This document shows positions 1-16,128 of a stretch of DNA of 64,000 nt, piece by piece. Numbering within the stretch: position 1 is the stretch's first letter; every line of letters begins with the position of its first letter. The notes under the pieces were generated by a model. The model was not told where the DNA came from, searched no databases, and saw only the letters and a program-made list of their open reading frames with translations. Source of the DNA: Sanderia malayensis (Eukaryota; Cnidaria; Scyphozoa; Semaeostomeae; Pelagiidae); assembly GCA_013076295.1 (NCBI GenBank), contig RQOL01000855.1:186001-250000 (forward strand), written 5' to 3'. The position numbers were made by a program, and so were the translations under genes.

Positions 1-3000
1 GGGCCAAATGGACAAAATTGGAACATGACCGCAACTTTCCATGTGTACTACTTCAACAGCCTAAAGCCGTATACGCTGTACTGTTTTCAAGTTTTATTGG
101 TATTGCAGAGCAAGGTTGAAGGCAATATAAGTGATTCCACGTGTGAACGCACAGATGAAAGTGGTAAGACTCCCAAACCTTTAAATCTTTTAGAACCCCA
201 TTTACACTGTAAATATCAAATGTAAGCTGTAGTGCAATGTTTGTATATTCGCATACTCATCTTTATCATCTTTATCAGTGTGGAAACATTTGGGTTTGAT
301 GCCTTTCGCTAGTTACAGCCTTTCTTTGTGACATCTAATCTATCACGCCACAAAGCGTTGAATGCATCTCCCTGCGCCACAGAAACAGACCTTTGATTAG
401 CGCCCACGGGCGTCTGAACAATTGAAGCATAAAGCGAGAACACTTTTTCTGCTCTCGCGCCAACCTATATCAGTAACAACAACAGCAACAACAATAATGA
501 TGATCATAATGATTCTTTTAGTGCCACTGGATCCACCAGCCAACATAGCTGGCTCGAATGTAACAGCATGGTGTTTGCTCATAACATGGAGTCCAATCCC
601 AACCGAACGAGCCCAGGGAATTATCACGAAATACCTCATCAACTATTGGAAACAGAGTGGTGGTAGTGCAGGAACTCTCACAAGAACAACCACATCGAAT
701 AGTTCTCTAGAAATCTGCGAACTAGAGCCGTACACTGCCTATTCGTTTAAAATATGTGGATTCACAAGGATTGGAAAAGGTCCCATGTCCATTCCTGTTA
801 CTGGGGTTTACACAGATGAATATAGTAAGAAAATTATTCAATGTTTATTTAGTTATCTATTCACTTCACCGTTATTTACTTACTTGCCATTCCTCAATCG
901 AATAATATGTGAGAAAATACGAGATTTTTAAAGGAGGGGTGAGGGGGTATATTACTGTTTTGTTGCCACCCGTTCTTTACCACTATCTTCATTTTTTCTC
1001 TTTTTCTACTCCTCGAACAAACGTTTACCACTTCATTTGCTTTATTTTAAGCTGCTTTTCTTTAATCGTTGTTTATATACTATTTTCGTGTATAGCATTT
1101 ATCAATGCCTTAGCATGCTTTAGTCTGACTTAATAAGTAAGCATCCATCTTTACTTTTCTGCTGTAAATACTATCTACCTGGCAAATTGTTTTCTTTCGC
1201 CACCGACTGTTTATGTTTATTCCCACACAGCTGTTTACTTGCTGCATGTTCATTTAATTACCTATTCATTTCTCGTTGGGTTTTATTAGTTCCTTCGGTG
1301 GCTCCATCCATTGCCTCAACCGAGCACACCAGTTCCACATCAATGAAAATCAAATGGCAAAATCTAGCTGCGCCGTATTGGCGAGGAGTACCTTATATGT
1401 ACGTTTTATACTATGTTTTGAAAGACATTTACACTGTAACTGGTGCTGCCAGCAATGTCTCGTCTGCATTCACCAACTATCCTGCCACAGAAATTGAACT
1501 GACACAGCTCGAGAAGTATAAATTCTATGTCATCTGGATGTGTGCATTCACAATCAAAGGATCTGGTATTGCAAACTCCACTACGAAGGAGCAACGAACT
1601 GACCAAGATGGTGAGTCAAACCATTTTACTTTTGGTCAGTTGGGCCTTGGTGGTTGTGCGTTTAGTCTACAATTTCTTGATATCTGCGCAGTATTGGCTT
1701 CTTCCGATTTTGCTCTGGCTTACATTTGCCTTTTCAGGTTTCATGTTTGATCGTAATATTTTGAAAACCTGTTGAGACGGTTTATTTGTTTTGATTTTAT
1801 TTATAAAATGATGCGAGATATGTGTGAAACTGAAGGCATTGCTGGACATCAAGTTTCAAGGCAACAACTTTGGGACACTTATTTTTGCCACATTAATTGA
1901 TTATTTGTCCTATTTCTCGCTTCTTAGAAATTTAATGAATTTGGAACCGCACTAACTTTTGATACCCCTGATATCTCAGTTCGATTCTTTTTCAGTTCCA
2001 AGCAGAGGACCTGATGCTAGAGCCCATAACAGCAGTTCATTCAGCATCATAGCCAATTGGACCGAACTTGAATACGAATACAGACTTGGTATACTGCTTG
2101 AGTACAGGGTCTTCTGCACTAATCTGAAGACGAACGTAGAAGTGACAGTGGGTGTTGACGCTGCTAAGCTATCAGCCGAAATAAAGGATCTTCTTCCATT
2201 CAAAAATCACAGTGTAGAAGTGGCTGGTGTTACATCGAAAGGTGTGGGAACTCGTGGTACTGCCGTGTACACACTAACAGATGAATACAGTGAGTTTATT
2301 GAGTGGACAAATTTAATGCTATTTTAGTTTGCTTACTTCTATTTTTATGTCCATGCACTGCAACCCTTCTTGCTTTAGCATCTTTGGGTTTGTTGTTTTT
2401 GTCTGCTTTTCTTTTCTATCCATTGCTTTCTTACGTTTTGCATTTATGTTCTTTGTTTGCATATGCTTCGGTTTTGTCTGCGTCATCTAATATACTTTTC
2501 TTTTCTTTGTATTGCTTTCCTATTTTACCTTTTCTTTGCCCTTCCTTCTTATGATTTGTCTTCATATGCTTGCATTTTGGCTTTGATTTTCAGTATTTTT
2601 CATTGATCTTGCTCCACATGAAAAACACATTTTGTACTGATGAATTTGATCTATTCTTCCTCGTGCTGTGTAGTGCCAGCTTACCAAATTGGGTTTGAAT
2701 AATACTGACCACTGAATACTGATCAAGGAATATTTCTTTCCCACACTCGAATCCAACGAATTTGCAAATTATTTTAGCATCTTTGCTTCTACTAATTACA
2801 TTTCTTTTTCTCGATTTTCTTCAGAGCCTTCGGCCGCTCCACCAAACTTTTTCGGTGTAAACATCAGTTCGTATGCCCTGAGATTGAACTGGTCTCTCAT
2901 ACCAAGCGACCACCGGCTTGGAATAATACGTGGCTACACGATAATGTACAAGAACACGTCTTCAGAAGACGACCACTGGAACACCACCGTCGTACACAGC

Positions 3001-6000
3001 GGACACCTACGTCATGCAGAGATACACAACTTGACGGCGTACACATTCTATTCACTTAAAATCGCCGGCTTCACAAAAATGGGCGACGGAACATTCAGTG
3101 ATGAAATTGTTGTCAGAACAGACGAGGACGGTAAGTCTTGTGCCATTTTTGATGTAGTTCAAGTGACCAACTGTTTAGTTTATTTTACCAGGAATGATTC
3201 TTCAAAGCTGACTGAGTCTTCTTCAGATTGCAACGTTCATTGCATTTTTATTTAATCTTCTAGGATCTCTTGTGGCTTGTAATCTTTTCAATTGTTTGTA
3301 ATAATTTTTTGAAATAGGAGGCGCCTATTCAATATTTTATTGGAGCAGGGAAGCCTTTATAAAATTTGACTTAATGACACCAACGGGCGTTTACTCTTTA
3401 CGCCAATGGAAGCATTGCTAACAATGTCTAGCTGCCATTGATTTGACAGTTGCTTATGGACTCTGCTTTTTTCACAGCACCATATGAGCCACCGCGATCT
3501 TTGAAAGCCTCCGAAATCAATGCGTTTAATGCCATCATAAACTGGAGTCCCCCCCACTCTTCTGCAGTTAGAGGCATCATTCGCGGATACAAGATAATGT
3601 ACACAGCAGTTTATTCGCCGCTAGATTTCACAAGCCACTTGCTGATTACGAGTAATAATAGACGCCGGAGGTCTCTTATTTCCAAGCCTCTGGACCTAAA
3701 TCAGTATGTTATACTTGATATTTTGTATATTTTTTGTCTTTAATTGTTAACTGTAGCATTATAGGGTATTGAATTATAGGACTTTAGTGGGTCAAAGTAA
3801 CATCTTAAAATCTAACATCTTGTGGAAAATAATTCCCGAATTCTCCCGTTTTCCATAAAATTCCCAAATTTAACGAATAAGAGTATCAATAAAAGGCATT
3901 CAATTTTCCCAGCTTAAAGGGTAATTTTTAGTAAATACACCCCTGGGTTTCATTTGTACTAACCCCTTCCCCTCTTCAAGCAATTTTCAAAACCTTCCGT
4001 TCTCCCCTTACCACCACCATATACGTTAATCGTTGTAGCATTAAGCAGTCACATATGCCCCTTTATACCCCTTATACCCCCGTTTGCGTGCTACCCCATG
4101 ATTATTAACGATAGCTTTATCTCTCTTCGTGGTTTTAGGTACAATGTTACGGTCAGTAGCAGCCAGTTTCATTTAGATATCCGGGATCTGCAAGGTGCAA
4201 CAAACTACAGTGTCGAAATATTGGCATTTACCATTCGTGAAGGTGTAGTCAGTGCACCACTCTATATCTATACAAAAGAAAATAGTAAGTTAATATATAA
4301 TGTTATAATACATCCTATCCTTTATTCTTTCGAATATCCTAGATTTTATATTTCATCATGTATCAATTTTGCCCTATCCCATTCTATTTTATGACATGCT
4401 GTTCCATTTTACTAACATTATGCCAATGCTATACTGTATACTGTACAATGTTATTTTATGCTATACTAATGATGGTATACAATACTATGCTATGTTATTG
4501 TATGCCATGGTATGCAAAACTATGTTATGTTATACTATGCTATTATATAATGGCATATGCTATACTGTACTTTGCTATACTATGCTATACTATGCTATAC
4601 TATGCAATTTATGTTAAAAATTGCATTTACATAAACTGTATAATCAATGATTTACCTGAATTTTAGTTCCAGCAATGGCCCCAATAAATGTTACAGCTCA
4701 CAACGCGACTTATACAAGCCTGATGGTGAGATGGAAGCACATTTTTCCAGCATATGCGCATGGAAACATTGAAGGATTTCTCGTCTACTACCAGCTGGGC
4801 AATCACAGCGAAGCAACTGCTCACAAGGAGTCGCAAATTGCACGAAGAACATTCCTTGAAGTTACACATCTTCATATTTTTGCACTGTACACAATACAGG
4901 TTGCTGCGTACACGAAAGTTGGCATTGGCATCAAAAGTAAACCTGTTTATGCAAAAACGGATGAATGGGGTAAGTTCCCACTGGCATTTGCGGTTTCAAA
5001 CTGTCTTACCTCGACTTTCGCAATTTTTAACTCTGTACCTATTTCATATAGTTCTCTCGTAGCTTTATGCAGATGTAGACAAGACACTTACTTATAGCTT
5101 CAGTTCTTCACAGATTTATTTAGGTTACCGAACTGTCCTATCCACCCGTCCATACCCTCGATCAGCCCTGTTTGGTGTTCTATGGCTGTCTATAGCTTTA
5201 CCAAGCTCCTGGATCCCTAGTTGATTTAGCTCTCAGAAGCTTTTGTCTAACCCTCTGTTCTAGTTCTTGAAACAAATTTGTTTATACCTAGTTTAATATG
5301 TACCTTTATATTACTTTAATTAATTTGTTTTGATGTTTAATGAAGATTGATTAATGTTTAATAATTCTGCATGTCACTTCTCTTTTTCTTCTAGTTCCAT
5401 CAAAAGCACCTGACAGCATAGTTGTGAACAGCTACTTGAAGTCACGCGAGTTTGATGTTTCGTGGAGCCATTTGGACTACAAATACTGGAACGGCATTCC
5501 ACTTGGCTATCAAATTGTGGCAACCACTATTAGCATCGGTGGAGTGAAAGTCAAGAAATCGGAACGACTGACGCACACTTTGAGGGTTGACAGCCATTTC
5601 AACAATGTCAAATTCAGCAACATGCAATCTTATTGCATGTATGGAATCCAAGTCAGCGCTTATACGAGAAAAGGAGTTGGGCCTTCGAGTGCCATGAAAT
5701 ATCTCGGTAAGTGTGTGCATTTATATATCGGACATCCACGTTGTATTCTGCTGTCCGTTTTAAAAGAAGGTTGATTAAAACAGCTACGACATGAGTGAAC
5801 CAATGTTACGTCGCACATATGTGGTTTTTAACGGAGGCTCCACTGTGTATTGCTATATCTTTATACAATTTCAGTGTGTACCATTTTGTTGCCACCAGAA
5901 AATGCAAGCACGATAGAGTCTCATAGTATTGATAAATAGTACTTCTATTCGATGTCTTTATATCTCAAAGCGTGACATATAATTTACTGTATACAGTATT

Positions 6001-9000
6001 TCCAATGACTATTACCATGTAATCTTTATGTGTGATGTCAGACCATATAGCAAGTGCCATATAGCAGATGCCATGCTAAGTAACATAGTGTACCACGTTG
6101 TGTATGCAATAGATCAATGTTCTGTTTCGTACTCTCATCTCCTAGAAACATGCTACCTTACAAAAGGCATTATGTCCACATCTTGGATAGATCACATGCC
6201 CATGATCAAACAAAACCCGCATGGCAAGACTGCTGGCGGACAACAAATCATGGGATTCCTCCCACCTTTGTTGCTGAAAATCTTAAAGCAATGTTCAGGT
6301 CTGTGCGCTGAGATCAACATCCGAAACAACGGCACGCTCGATTTTCAACGGGACGGTCACGGCAGGCCTGCGAGAAAGAGCAATTTGCAAGAGTTACTGG
6401 CAACAATGAGCAGCAAGACGGATCTAATGTTCCCAGTCCTTAAGCCGAGCTATTCTATCGAAGATTACAAGTATATAGAGATTATGTCAATGAGTAAGGT
6501 TGTGCTGGTCGAAGGAAAACCATTGGTCAATACCATTGGCTTGGCTGTGAGTAACAGTCTGTCACCAATGCTCTATATGCTACTCGTGTTTGTTCTATTC
6601 TGCCTTTTGGCTGGTTGCTGTATGTGGTTGCTGGTAAGTACAGTTCAATCTATAGCACTTACGAGTAGCGCGCTGCCATCTCAACCGGTTTTATGTCTCT
6701 GTTGTTTTGCCAGTCAAATCCAGTATGAATCGCAACCCTTAATGTTCTAGCCTTAAATTAGTCTTTGATGTTCTCAACCTTCGAAACAGCGTTCGTGGAA
6801 GCAATTTTTGAACGCGCGCAGACTTTTTTAGGATCAAATTCCTGAGTTTTCTATTTTTTGATTTGTTGTTACAGCACCGCCGTTTCCCTTTGTTCCTAGG
6901 AAAGATATGCTGATTCAGATGAAGTTAGAAGGCATCCAGTATATGGGATCTTTGATGGTTTCTACTGGGCGTTTGTCGTTGCTACAACTGTAGGGTGCGT
7001 CTTGTCAGCCATATTGTTTTTCCTTTTCCTCTTTATGCATTGGTTGTTCTGTTTTTGTTTTTGCTCATCTACTCTCTCCCTCCCTCTTTCTCCATAATTT
7101 CCCCTCGTCCACACGTGCTGAACATGAATATCCTTTCGTTATGGTCCTTACACGCTTCTTTTTTTTAGTTATGGCGACATAGTTCCATCGAGAAATCTCA
7201 GTCGAATATTTTCAATGATTTGGTCTCTGATTGGCCTAATATTGGTTGTTTTTTTGACTGGAACACTTACATCTGTCCTGACGTCTTCAGAATCTTCAGT
7301 TAAAATTAAAACCGTGCCAAAATCTGGGGTAAGTTCCACTTCCATCATTATTCTCACTACTGCAAAGCATTTCAAGTTGCCGTGGCCATCAAGGTAGCTT
7401 CTTCCATTGTTTGGTATAACCTTTTGTAGCTCCTTCTGATACTATACTATCCAGTCCAGCTTTTTGTAGTTTAGCAGTTTAGCTCTTTGTAGACATGAAC
7501 GCTTTCATGCAGCTCTGGTTGCCTTTCACTAACTTTTTACAGCTAAACATTTTTCTCTTCTGTGCTCTCAACTTTCTCAAATTCACATTTCTTTCTCTGG
7601 CGCCGTCGATGTCTCTGCAGCTTTATATCAGCGCCTTTTCTTCGTAGACTTGTATTTTTCTTTTTAAATTCTTATATGCCTTCTTTGATAATAAGTTAAT
7701 TCATATTATGTTATAGTACATTCTAAATTGGTCTTTCTTCCATCACCAGGTTATTGAGATTTCAACGTTTAAAGTCATTTATTTTTTCACAGATTGGCAT
7801 GGTGAAAGATTCTTGGGAGTTTCTCGTTGCCCAAAAGAAAGGAATGAAAATTGGTATGACGTAATTAATGATGAAGGTTTCAAGTCGTATGCTACTTCAT
7901 GAACATAGCTATTACGTTACAACGAAACTTATGGGTTCATTCAGCTACATCCTACAGTTGCAGTTAGCTACATCCTTTCAATTGGCCCTAATGTGTTAGT
8001 TATCTTCCATGAGTAAATTATGTGTCCAAGCATCTTTCCATTAATGTAAGATGCAACATGATCTTGTTAATGCAAAGCTTAGATAATATCAACTCTCACT
8101 TACTTAAAATGTTTTGGCAAGGGCTCGAACATCTACTTTTCTTTTTTAAACCCAGCCATGTTTGCATCTGTCTCTTGGTGGCTCGCGTTATGAAGAGGAT
8201 ACTGAATTTTCGTTGACATTTTGGTGTTTGTTGAAATTCCGTTTTTATATGTCGTTAGATAAGAACTACAGCGACTATATGGAGTTGTTGAATGCTGTTG
8301 GAAATGGGACAGTGAAGAATGGTCTTCTGGATGTTGATGTTGCAACCATTTGGAGTGAAAAGCTTGCCAAAGAATCCATATCAATAAAAGCTCTTGTCAA
8401 CCTGGGTGGTAGTATGGGCATTTTTGCAACTGGAGATGCAAGAAAATTGGCCGGTTGTTTCAGGGCAGGGATAAAAGAAGAATCGGGCTTCATTCTCAAT
8501 GAAAAAATACGTGCCATTCAGGTCAGTAACATTATATTTTATGCAGATAAAGTAGAGTAGCTCAACAAAATGCAGGTGTGTATGGGAGATAGAGGCACCA
8601 TTATCCCATTTGTAAATTAAAACGTTGGAAATGACGTTGTACTTTACTTGTCCCTCACCCTGCCTGAATTCTCGAGCTATGTCTTCACTACCGTGTTAAT
8701 CGAATGATGTGGCAGCTGGCATTTTAATCTTTTCTCTAATGCTCTAAACATTAAGAGTTGATATTTAATTGTAGCATGCCTTGGAACTACCCATATTTAT
8801 ATAGCACAGGCATTCATTTAGCATTTAAGATTCATATTTAAATGTATGTGCTCCATAGTTATGCGTATTTGACTGTGTTTTCATCGTGAACCATCCTTCA
8901 ATTCCACTCCAGATCGAAACAGCTCATATCAGTAAGCAACTTCAAGTGAATACCAGCGCTTCCACTGCAGTAATCACTGTCGCCGATACAGGTCCCAAAT

Positions 9001-9825
9001 TCTACAGCTGGGAATCAACTGTCATGCAGTTTTATATCAAAGGCGGCGCCATGATTTTAGGAGTCTTTCTGGTTCTTGGCTCCATTTACGAAATTATCAG
9101 ATGCATCAGGAAGCGAAGAGGGAAAAATAATTCTGTCAAGCCTCGTTTTGGTTTGTCTCAATTTTACATTGTATTGTATTTAGATGCGAGGATAGGCTAA
9201 TTGTTTGGGTTGCGTGGAAGTCATTTTATGGATTAACTGTTGTGTCAATATTTGCCTTTTGCTTTAGAAAAGGAAAGGCTGGCTGGCATCATGCTTTCCC
9301 ACTTTGGTCATGCCCAGTCCTCGACGCAATACCGTAATGCTTCGAGAATACGTCAAAACACTATGAAAAAGCAATTATTCGCTCTGGGCGTTTATTGGAA
9401 GGTCTTGTAATAATTTTCTTCATCTTTCAGGTGTAAACGAAGAAGTGAATGCAGGTCCTTCAGATGAGGAGCCAGCTGAGCATCGTGATGAGCCAGCCCA
9501 GTACGAGAACATATACCCTTCTCTGACAAACCTCGATGACAATGCGAGCTTGGATCCCTATGCACAGCTAATGGAAAGTTTATCATCAACAATACCCGTC
9601 CCTTCAGCATCTGTAGTGCCCAATGCAACAGTCAATGATATTGTGGAGGCAGAGACAAGCGTGTTGATAGAAAAACTCGCTTCCAATTTCGTGGAAATCA
9701 TGGATGAACTCGAAAACTTGCACGTACAGGAAAGACTGAAGTTACAGCGATTGAAATGGGACTTGTATGGAATGTATAAGTACGTTGATCCAACTGATTA
9801 TGGGGTTCCTTTTGACTTTGAGTGA
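1..9825 (+). CDS. FN3-repeat receptor fused to a GluR0-like potassium-channel/ligand-binding module (5' partial)
   Basis: Sixteen exons: <1-163, 522-824, 1290-1610, 1996-2289, 2825-3130, 3478-3703, 4139-4284, 4667-4969, 5395-5706, 6146-6633, 6900-6994, 7169-7328, 7793-7853, 8259-8521, 8913-9150, 9431-9825 (TGA). Every junction has GT/AG and keeps frame. The first nine exons encode about eight fibronectin type III domains, each with the B-strand Trp and a 'Tyr...Gly.Gly' F-G end. Exon 10 encodes a domain resembling the S1 lobe of glutamate receptors, then a hydrophobic helix (MLYMLLVFVLFCLLAGCCMW). Exons 11-12 give a pore loop TTVGYGDIVPSRNLSRIFSM and a second helix. Exons 13-15 give an S2-like lobe and a third helix followed by a basic stop-transfer. 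Exon 16 is an acidic, partly coiled cytoplasmic tail. The order S1-TM-pore-TM-S2 matches bacterial GluR0; the FN3 ectodomain is unlike classical iGluRs. Inferred: ligand- or adhesion-gated K+ channel at the plasma membrane. The 5' end, with any signal peptide, lies outside the window. Confidence 0.85.
4395..4612. repeat. AT-rich simple repeat, (TATGCTATAC)-like
   Basis: Imperfect short repeats of 'tatgctatac', 'tatgttat' and similar lie in the intron between exons 7 and 8 of the FN3-channel gene. They produce spurious reading frames rich in Tyr, Met, Leu and Cys. Confidence 0.7.
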
Positions 9826-10030: not shown

Positions 10031-10206
10031 CAGATTGAAAGGGACGAAAATTTAAACAAAAATCTGATCCAAGCATTTTTTTGCACTCAAACCGTTGGAC
10101 AACAACGAAAGGCGAAGCTTCACTTCACATTTTCCATTTCTGGCAATTCTTGGCTATAATTTGCACTATAATATCTTATATTTTCATTGTGAAATACCAC
10201 TTCAAA

Positions 10207-16128
<5,922 letters not shown>

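Follow-up and report, generated by a model that had tools for sequence, protein, structure and literature searches.

Glutamate receptors are widely thought to have descended from a K+-type pore combined with a binding protein. In the portions of the papers drawn on here, the links cited for the pore transition are the bacterial GluR0 and a single rotifer receptor (PMC3483616, PMC12332018, PMC11479355). For GluR0, the abstract of PMC13099474 gives K+ uptake and an inverted orientation in the membrane as experimental results. The rotifer receptor, AvGluR1 from Adineta vaga, is an animal glutamate receptor with a TXVGYG filter, according to the same portions of the three papers, and a first-pass annotation of the DNA discussed below is corrected on this point, having stated that animal ionotropic glutamate receptors (iGluRs) lost the GYG filter. 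Excerpts from PMC6307864 and PMC12226733 place animal iGluRs in the classes AKDF, NMDA, Epsilon and Lambda.

The gene described here lies in a 64,000-nucleotide stretch of the genome of the scyphozoan Sanderia malayensis (contig RQOL01000855.1, positions 186,001 to 250,000), referred to as the window. It was spliced by hand into 23 exons on the + strand, from window position -3751 to 9825. Sixteen of these are at least partly in the window, in agreement with the earlier count. All inner exon borders are AG/GT, and the exons share a single reading frame with a single stop, which ends at 9825. The reading of FN3 repeats and channel as one frame across clean splice sites is therefore confirmed (AG acceptors, GT donors, GT-AG introns). 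The gene extends at least 3.75 kb 5′ of the window, where ILEI, FN3 and TSP1 are encoded (locus L011). A search for a first exon encoding a signal peptide found none, and the modelled 5′ end is incomplete. The modelled protein is 1,907 residues long and has the order ILEI, FN3, a stretch without assignment, TSP1, eight FN3, S1, M1, the TTVGYGD pore loop, M2, S2, M3 and a tail. The exons in the window are as follows.

1 to 163 (exon start about 120 bases before the window), + strand: FN3 domain 1 of the series (splice model, Pfam)
522 to 824, + strand: FN3 domain 2 (splice model, Pfam)
1290 to 1610, + strand: FN3 domain 3 (splice model, Pfam)
1996 to 2289, + strand: FN3 domain 4 (splice model, Pfam)
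2825 to 3130, + strand: FN3 domain 5 (splice model, Pfam)
3478 to 3703, + strand: FN3 domain 6, first of two exons (splice model, Pfam)
4139 to 4284, + strand: FN3 domain 6, second of two exons (splice model, Pfam)
4667 to 4969, + strand: FN3 domain 7 (splice model, Pfam)
5395 to 5706, + strand: FN3 domain 8, with a phase-1 junction to the channel module (splice model, Pfam)
6146 to 6633, + strand: S1 lobe (PBP-like lobe 1) and helix M1 (splice model, hydrophobicity, profile comparison)
6900 to 6994, + strand: pore helix, followed by the TTVG half of the filter (splice model, Pfam, paralogue comparison)
7169 to 7328, + strand: helix M2, preceded by the YGD half of the filter (splice model, genome matches)
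7793 to 7853, + strand: start of the S2 lobe (splice model, paralogue alignment)
8259 to 8521, + strand: core of the S2 lobe with a conserved acidic residue, GLLD (profile comparison, PDB matches)
8913 to 9150, + strand: last part of S2, then helix M3, which corresponds to iGluR M4, and a basic stretch (splice model, hydrophobicity)
9431 to 9825, + strand: putative cytoplasmic tail and stop codon (splice model)

The eight exons from 5395 onward are in one frame, and a phase-2 intron (6994/7169) interrupts the codons of TTVGYGD. A redundant 154-kb contig (L115, C469:1-10000) duplicates the 5′ part of the gene at 99.85%, with 2 mismatches and 3 gapped codons, and ends near window position 5114. 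Directly 3′ of the gene, at 10200-12300 on the + strand, are exons of a protein kinase that is polo-like by eye.

Pfam matched ILEI (6.9e−14), TSP1 (1.7e−6) and fn3 in eight stretches of the series (218.6 bits), which confirms the at least eight FN3 in series of the first-pass annotation. Its FN3 outer part stands, but the description was incomplete, as ILEI and TSP1 are also present. The FN3 ahead of TSP1 is weak in Pfam (23 bits against a cut-off of 25), and nothing in Pfam, up to E 0.1, matches the stretch that separates this FN3 from TSP1. This stretch contains cysteines (GCSRGYYQFVLKVDGRKDTFDF...; L011:7382-7431 and 8134-8410). Residues 1-1340 carry 24 N-glycosylation sequons. Searched with Pfam up to E 0.1, the 1,907-residue model, from which the first exon is absent, gave no match to the LIVBP-like amino-terminal domain (ATD). 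The DNA at L011:7855-7977 (window -2145 to -2023) stays open behind a good acceptor, with the translation ETCGIHCIFIV...STIAFLSLVISLLK, until it reaches a stop. It is possibly an alternative last exon, yielding a short ILEI-FN3-TM protein.

Within the module, Pfam identified Ion_trans_2 (9.6e−16) and Lig_chan (2.2e−7), the latter at 31.2 bits, just over the 30.8 cut-off. The S1 lobe of the window protein has no Pfam match. The Pfam search proposed with the first-pass annotation thus recovers fn3 (8), Ion_trans_2 and, marginally, Lig_chan, but not S1. Only three segments of the 1,907 residues rise above a plain hydrophobicity threshold, M1, M2 and M3, all of them within the module, and a cluster of basic residues follows M3. 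The three membrane helices with a re-entrant loop, the S1/S2 split, the weak Lig_chan match and the post-S2 helix (M4) with a tail are likenesses to animal iGluRs. Unlike these, the protein has the K+ filter TTVGYGD in place of the Q/R/N site, its gate helix reads FLTGTLTSVLTS where animal iGluRs have SYTANLAAF, and it is without an ATD match. The pore helix and filter are like those of Kv and two-TM K+ channels; however, with hydrophobic segments numbering three only, an S1-S4 voltage sensor is absent, and the pore is set between two ligand-binding lobes.

The pore on its own resembles K+ channels generally, and the lobes were therefore tested one by one. Twelve family modules from the same genome were assembled with a spliced aligner, weaker paralogue exons being placed approximately. 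Ten of the 12 entered the S1 profile (A2; L023 and L025 omitted) and 11 the S2 profile (A3; L023 omitted). For the bacterial set, GTDB contigs were scanned with the family alignment, using a search pattern that requires GYGD. Of at least 393 relatives confirmed in this way, the best 80 were kept; 69 of these, with open frames of 340-420 residues, make up the bacterial profile, and the 11 outside this range were left out. The whole module, as a 12-member profile, aligned with these 69 proteins (from the best 80 of 393) over 297 columns (probability 100, E 1.4e−46), a score that is mostly pore-driven. In hhalign, S1 alone matched the bacterial profile at 61% (E 8e−5) and S2 alone at 95.9% (E 5.5e−9); all three E-values refer to single comparisons. 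Each lobe aligned singly keeps collinearity with its bacterial counterpart, crossed-lobe alignments between animal and bacterial profiles fail (0.2% and 12%), and none of 100 column shuffles matched the real score for either S1 or S2.

At a cut-off of E 10, the S2 profile retrieved 17 sequences from PDB. Top-ranked was 2pyy, a bacterial iGluR homologue (6.1e−4), followed by AncQR, a reconstructed amino-acid-binding protein (0.0054), and Slr1257/GluR0 as 1iit and 1ii5 (0.011 each, borderline). None of the 17 was a eukaryotic iGluR. As a control, the iGluR-type frame L007 (S1 and pore) from the same genome retrieves NMDA receptors from PDB at 2.5e−18. The S1 profile found nothing significant in PDB (histone H2B 0.16, arginine-binding protein 0.7). 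When Pfam was run on four more paralogues, one of them, L021, showed a weak SBP_bac_3 match (0.0036) over S1. SBP_bac_3, Ion_trans_2 and Lig_chan occur together in all eight bacterial relatives scanned, which were picked by their lobe matches. An AF2 model of S1 and M1 was unusable (pLDDT 45.6), and Foldseek matched nothing to two predicted models at E 0.001.

The GluR0-like reading of the module is therefore supported by the lobe-by-lobe comparison with bacterial GluR0-type proteins and by the PDB matches of S2. At the level of sequence, a predicted PBP-like ligand-binding domain is interrupted by an M1-P-M2 pore whose K+ filter is complete, and a third helix and a tail come after it. The order S1-M1-P-M2-S2, the K+-type filter and the PBP-like lobes are shared with bacterial GluR0 (Synechocystis Slr1257; homologue 2pyy) and with similar SBP/pore proteins. 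A TM helix follows S2 in 11 of the 12 animal modules, the exception being L021, whose prediction stops early. In contrast, a hydrophobic segment after S2 was found in none of the 69 bacterial proteins, and the length at which these were chosen, 340-420 residues, from the best 80 of 393, leaves no space for an adhesion ectodomain. AvGluR1, compared by description only, has the usual eukaryotic iGluR architecture in the portions of PMC12332018 and PMC11479355 drawn on, whereas the window protein carries FN3/TSP1/ILEI and gave no match to an ATD.

Searched across the genome, the M2 exon gave 33 matches at E 0.01 or better, its own included, and the distinct animal channel family proposed earlier is supported to this extent within its own genome. 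Judged from these sequences, the gene belongs to a multi-gene family of S. malayensis. We read 24 loci, the window gene and 23 others (L012-L034), picked from Ion_trans_2/Lig_chan matches, a choice that favours intact filters. In loci picked this way, the module layout recurs at all 23 paralogous loci, and GYGD and the filter-internal intron are kept in 24/24. The filter is TTVGYGD in 22 of the 24 and GTHGYGD in L023 and L024. C829 carries six family loci in a tandem array, and C859 has four near-identical loci, two of which were read. Point values of dN/dS are below 1 (0.14-0.61) in 17/17 close-paralogue pairs, from which the window gene is absent because it is without a close enough relative. 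The recurrence of the layout and these values speak against a chance arrangement. Elsewhere in this genome, L001 and L002 encode ordinary iGluR pores, which have LQQG and (T/S)YTANLAAF. Wnt and nuclear-receptor exons mark the genome as metazoan. Two further frames about 7 kb apart (L007, L008) have the gate helix SYTGNIIASLV, and L007 matches NMDA receptors; these are possibly another divergent iGluR group.

The gene is likely to encode a cell-surface, ligand-gated K+ channel subunit that is GluR0-like and carries an adhesion-type ectodomain. Four subunits would form an inverted K+-channel pore. A small extracellular ligand would close the S1/S2 clamshell, pull on M2 and open the pore, and the K+ outflow may hyperpolarise the cell or serve to control its K+ or volume. 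The outer part, FN3/TSP1/ILEI, would occupy the position of the iGluR amino-terminal domain and may anchor the channel to matrix or adjacent cells.

The filter motif alone does not settle selectivity, because sources disagree on AvGluR1: the part of PMC3483616 drawn on reports that it has TXVGYG and yet is Na+-permeable, whereas that of PMC11479355 describes the Adineta receptor as K+-selective. A channel with a GYG filter that passes cations without K+ selectivity, i.e., an excitatory receptor, would have a precedent in the first of these reports, but the second runs counter to it, as do the pore helix and filter of the window gene, which are of K+-channel type (Ion_trans_2 9.6e−16); we consider such a channel unlikely. 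The arginine of the bacterial S1 consensus (LTVTAER), which we take to be the amino-acid site residue in iGluRs and in the bacterial consensus, has no counterpart in the window protein, according to a profile alignment that is weak over S1. The S2 acidic residue (GLLD) lines up with its bacterial equivalent, and at least 90% of the 12 modules have it. With the S1 arginine unmatched and the S2 acidic residue kept, the ligand is probably other than plain glutamate. S1 is also the less similar lobe, and the ectodomain is a long chain of adhesion-type domains, as would be expected if the clamshell no longer bound a ligand and the channel were opened by force or by binding at the FN3/TSP1 ectodomain. 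Against this, paralogues without FN3 keep both lobes, and together with the conserved S2 acidic residue this suggests that ligand binding is retained in the family. We consider opening through the ectodomain alone unlikely.

FN3 lies upstream at 7 of the 23 paralogues, found by Pfam in L018, L022, L023, L030 and L032 and by a sequence pattern in L019 and L024. This recurrence and the matching splice phase support the FN3 fusion proposed in the first-pass annotation. At all seven, S1 opens with ETC, as in the window gene. The FN3 regular expression gave one false match, the S1 exon of L030. In the upstream DNA examined, 15 of the 23 had no FN3 pattern (L012-L017, L020, L021, L026-L029, L031, L033, L034). 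In L025, a CUB domain lies upstream in the stead of FN3 (L025:2195-2854), and ectodomains may therefore differ within the family. The channel module can exist without FN3, since these 15 paralogues lack the pattern and L025 has CUB. On a pore-region tree of 23 rows (L019 omitted), the FN3 bearers cluster with one change, and none of 500 shuffles was as low; a single FN3 origin is weakly supported by the tree (42/80; 43% of bootstrap trees). That two neighbouring genes, for an FN3 adhesion protein and a GluR0-like channel, were joined in the gene model only would fit these FN3-less paralogues, the CUB of L025 and the candidate alternative TM-bearing last exon 5′ of the TSP1 exon (L011:7855-7977), but is very improbable: neither a stop nor a hydrophobic segment interrupts the serial FN3 exons before the module, the last of these exons is free of stops and has a phase-1 end that the start of the S1 exon matches, and at seven of the 23 paralogues FN3 stands ahead of an S1 exon starting with ETC.

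The proposed GluR0-like channel with an adhesion-type ectodomain is of a known kind, as AvGluR1 already combines a K+ filter with a glutamate receptor in an animal. As far as the literature was searched, the family expansion, the FN3/TSP1/ILEI ectodomain and the coexistence with ordinary iGluR pores are new, and no layout of a ligand-gated channel fused to an adhesion ectodomain was met there. We tentatively suggest, at somewhat less than even confidence, that these approximately 30 genes constitute a fifth, unnamed family of animal glutamate-receptor-like proteins outside AKDF, NMDA, Epsilon and Lambda, derived from a GluR0-type ancestor that was either kept or acquired. Its channels would be K+-selective and therefore inhibitory, and one branch would couple ligand sensing to adhesion via FN3/TSP1/ILEI. 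A resident, intron-bearing and expanded family beside ordinary iGluR pores would open the transition from K+ pore to iGluR to direct recording.
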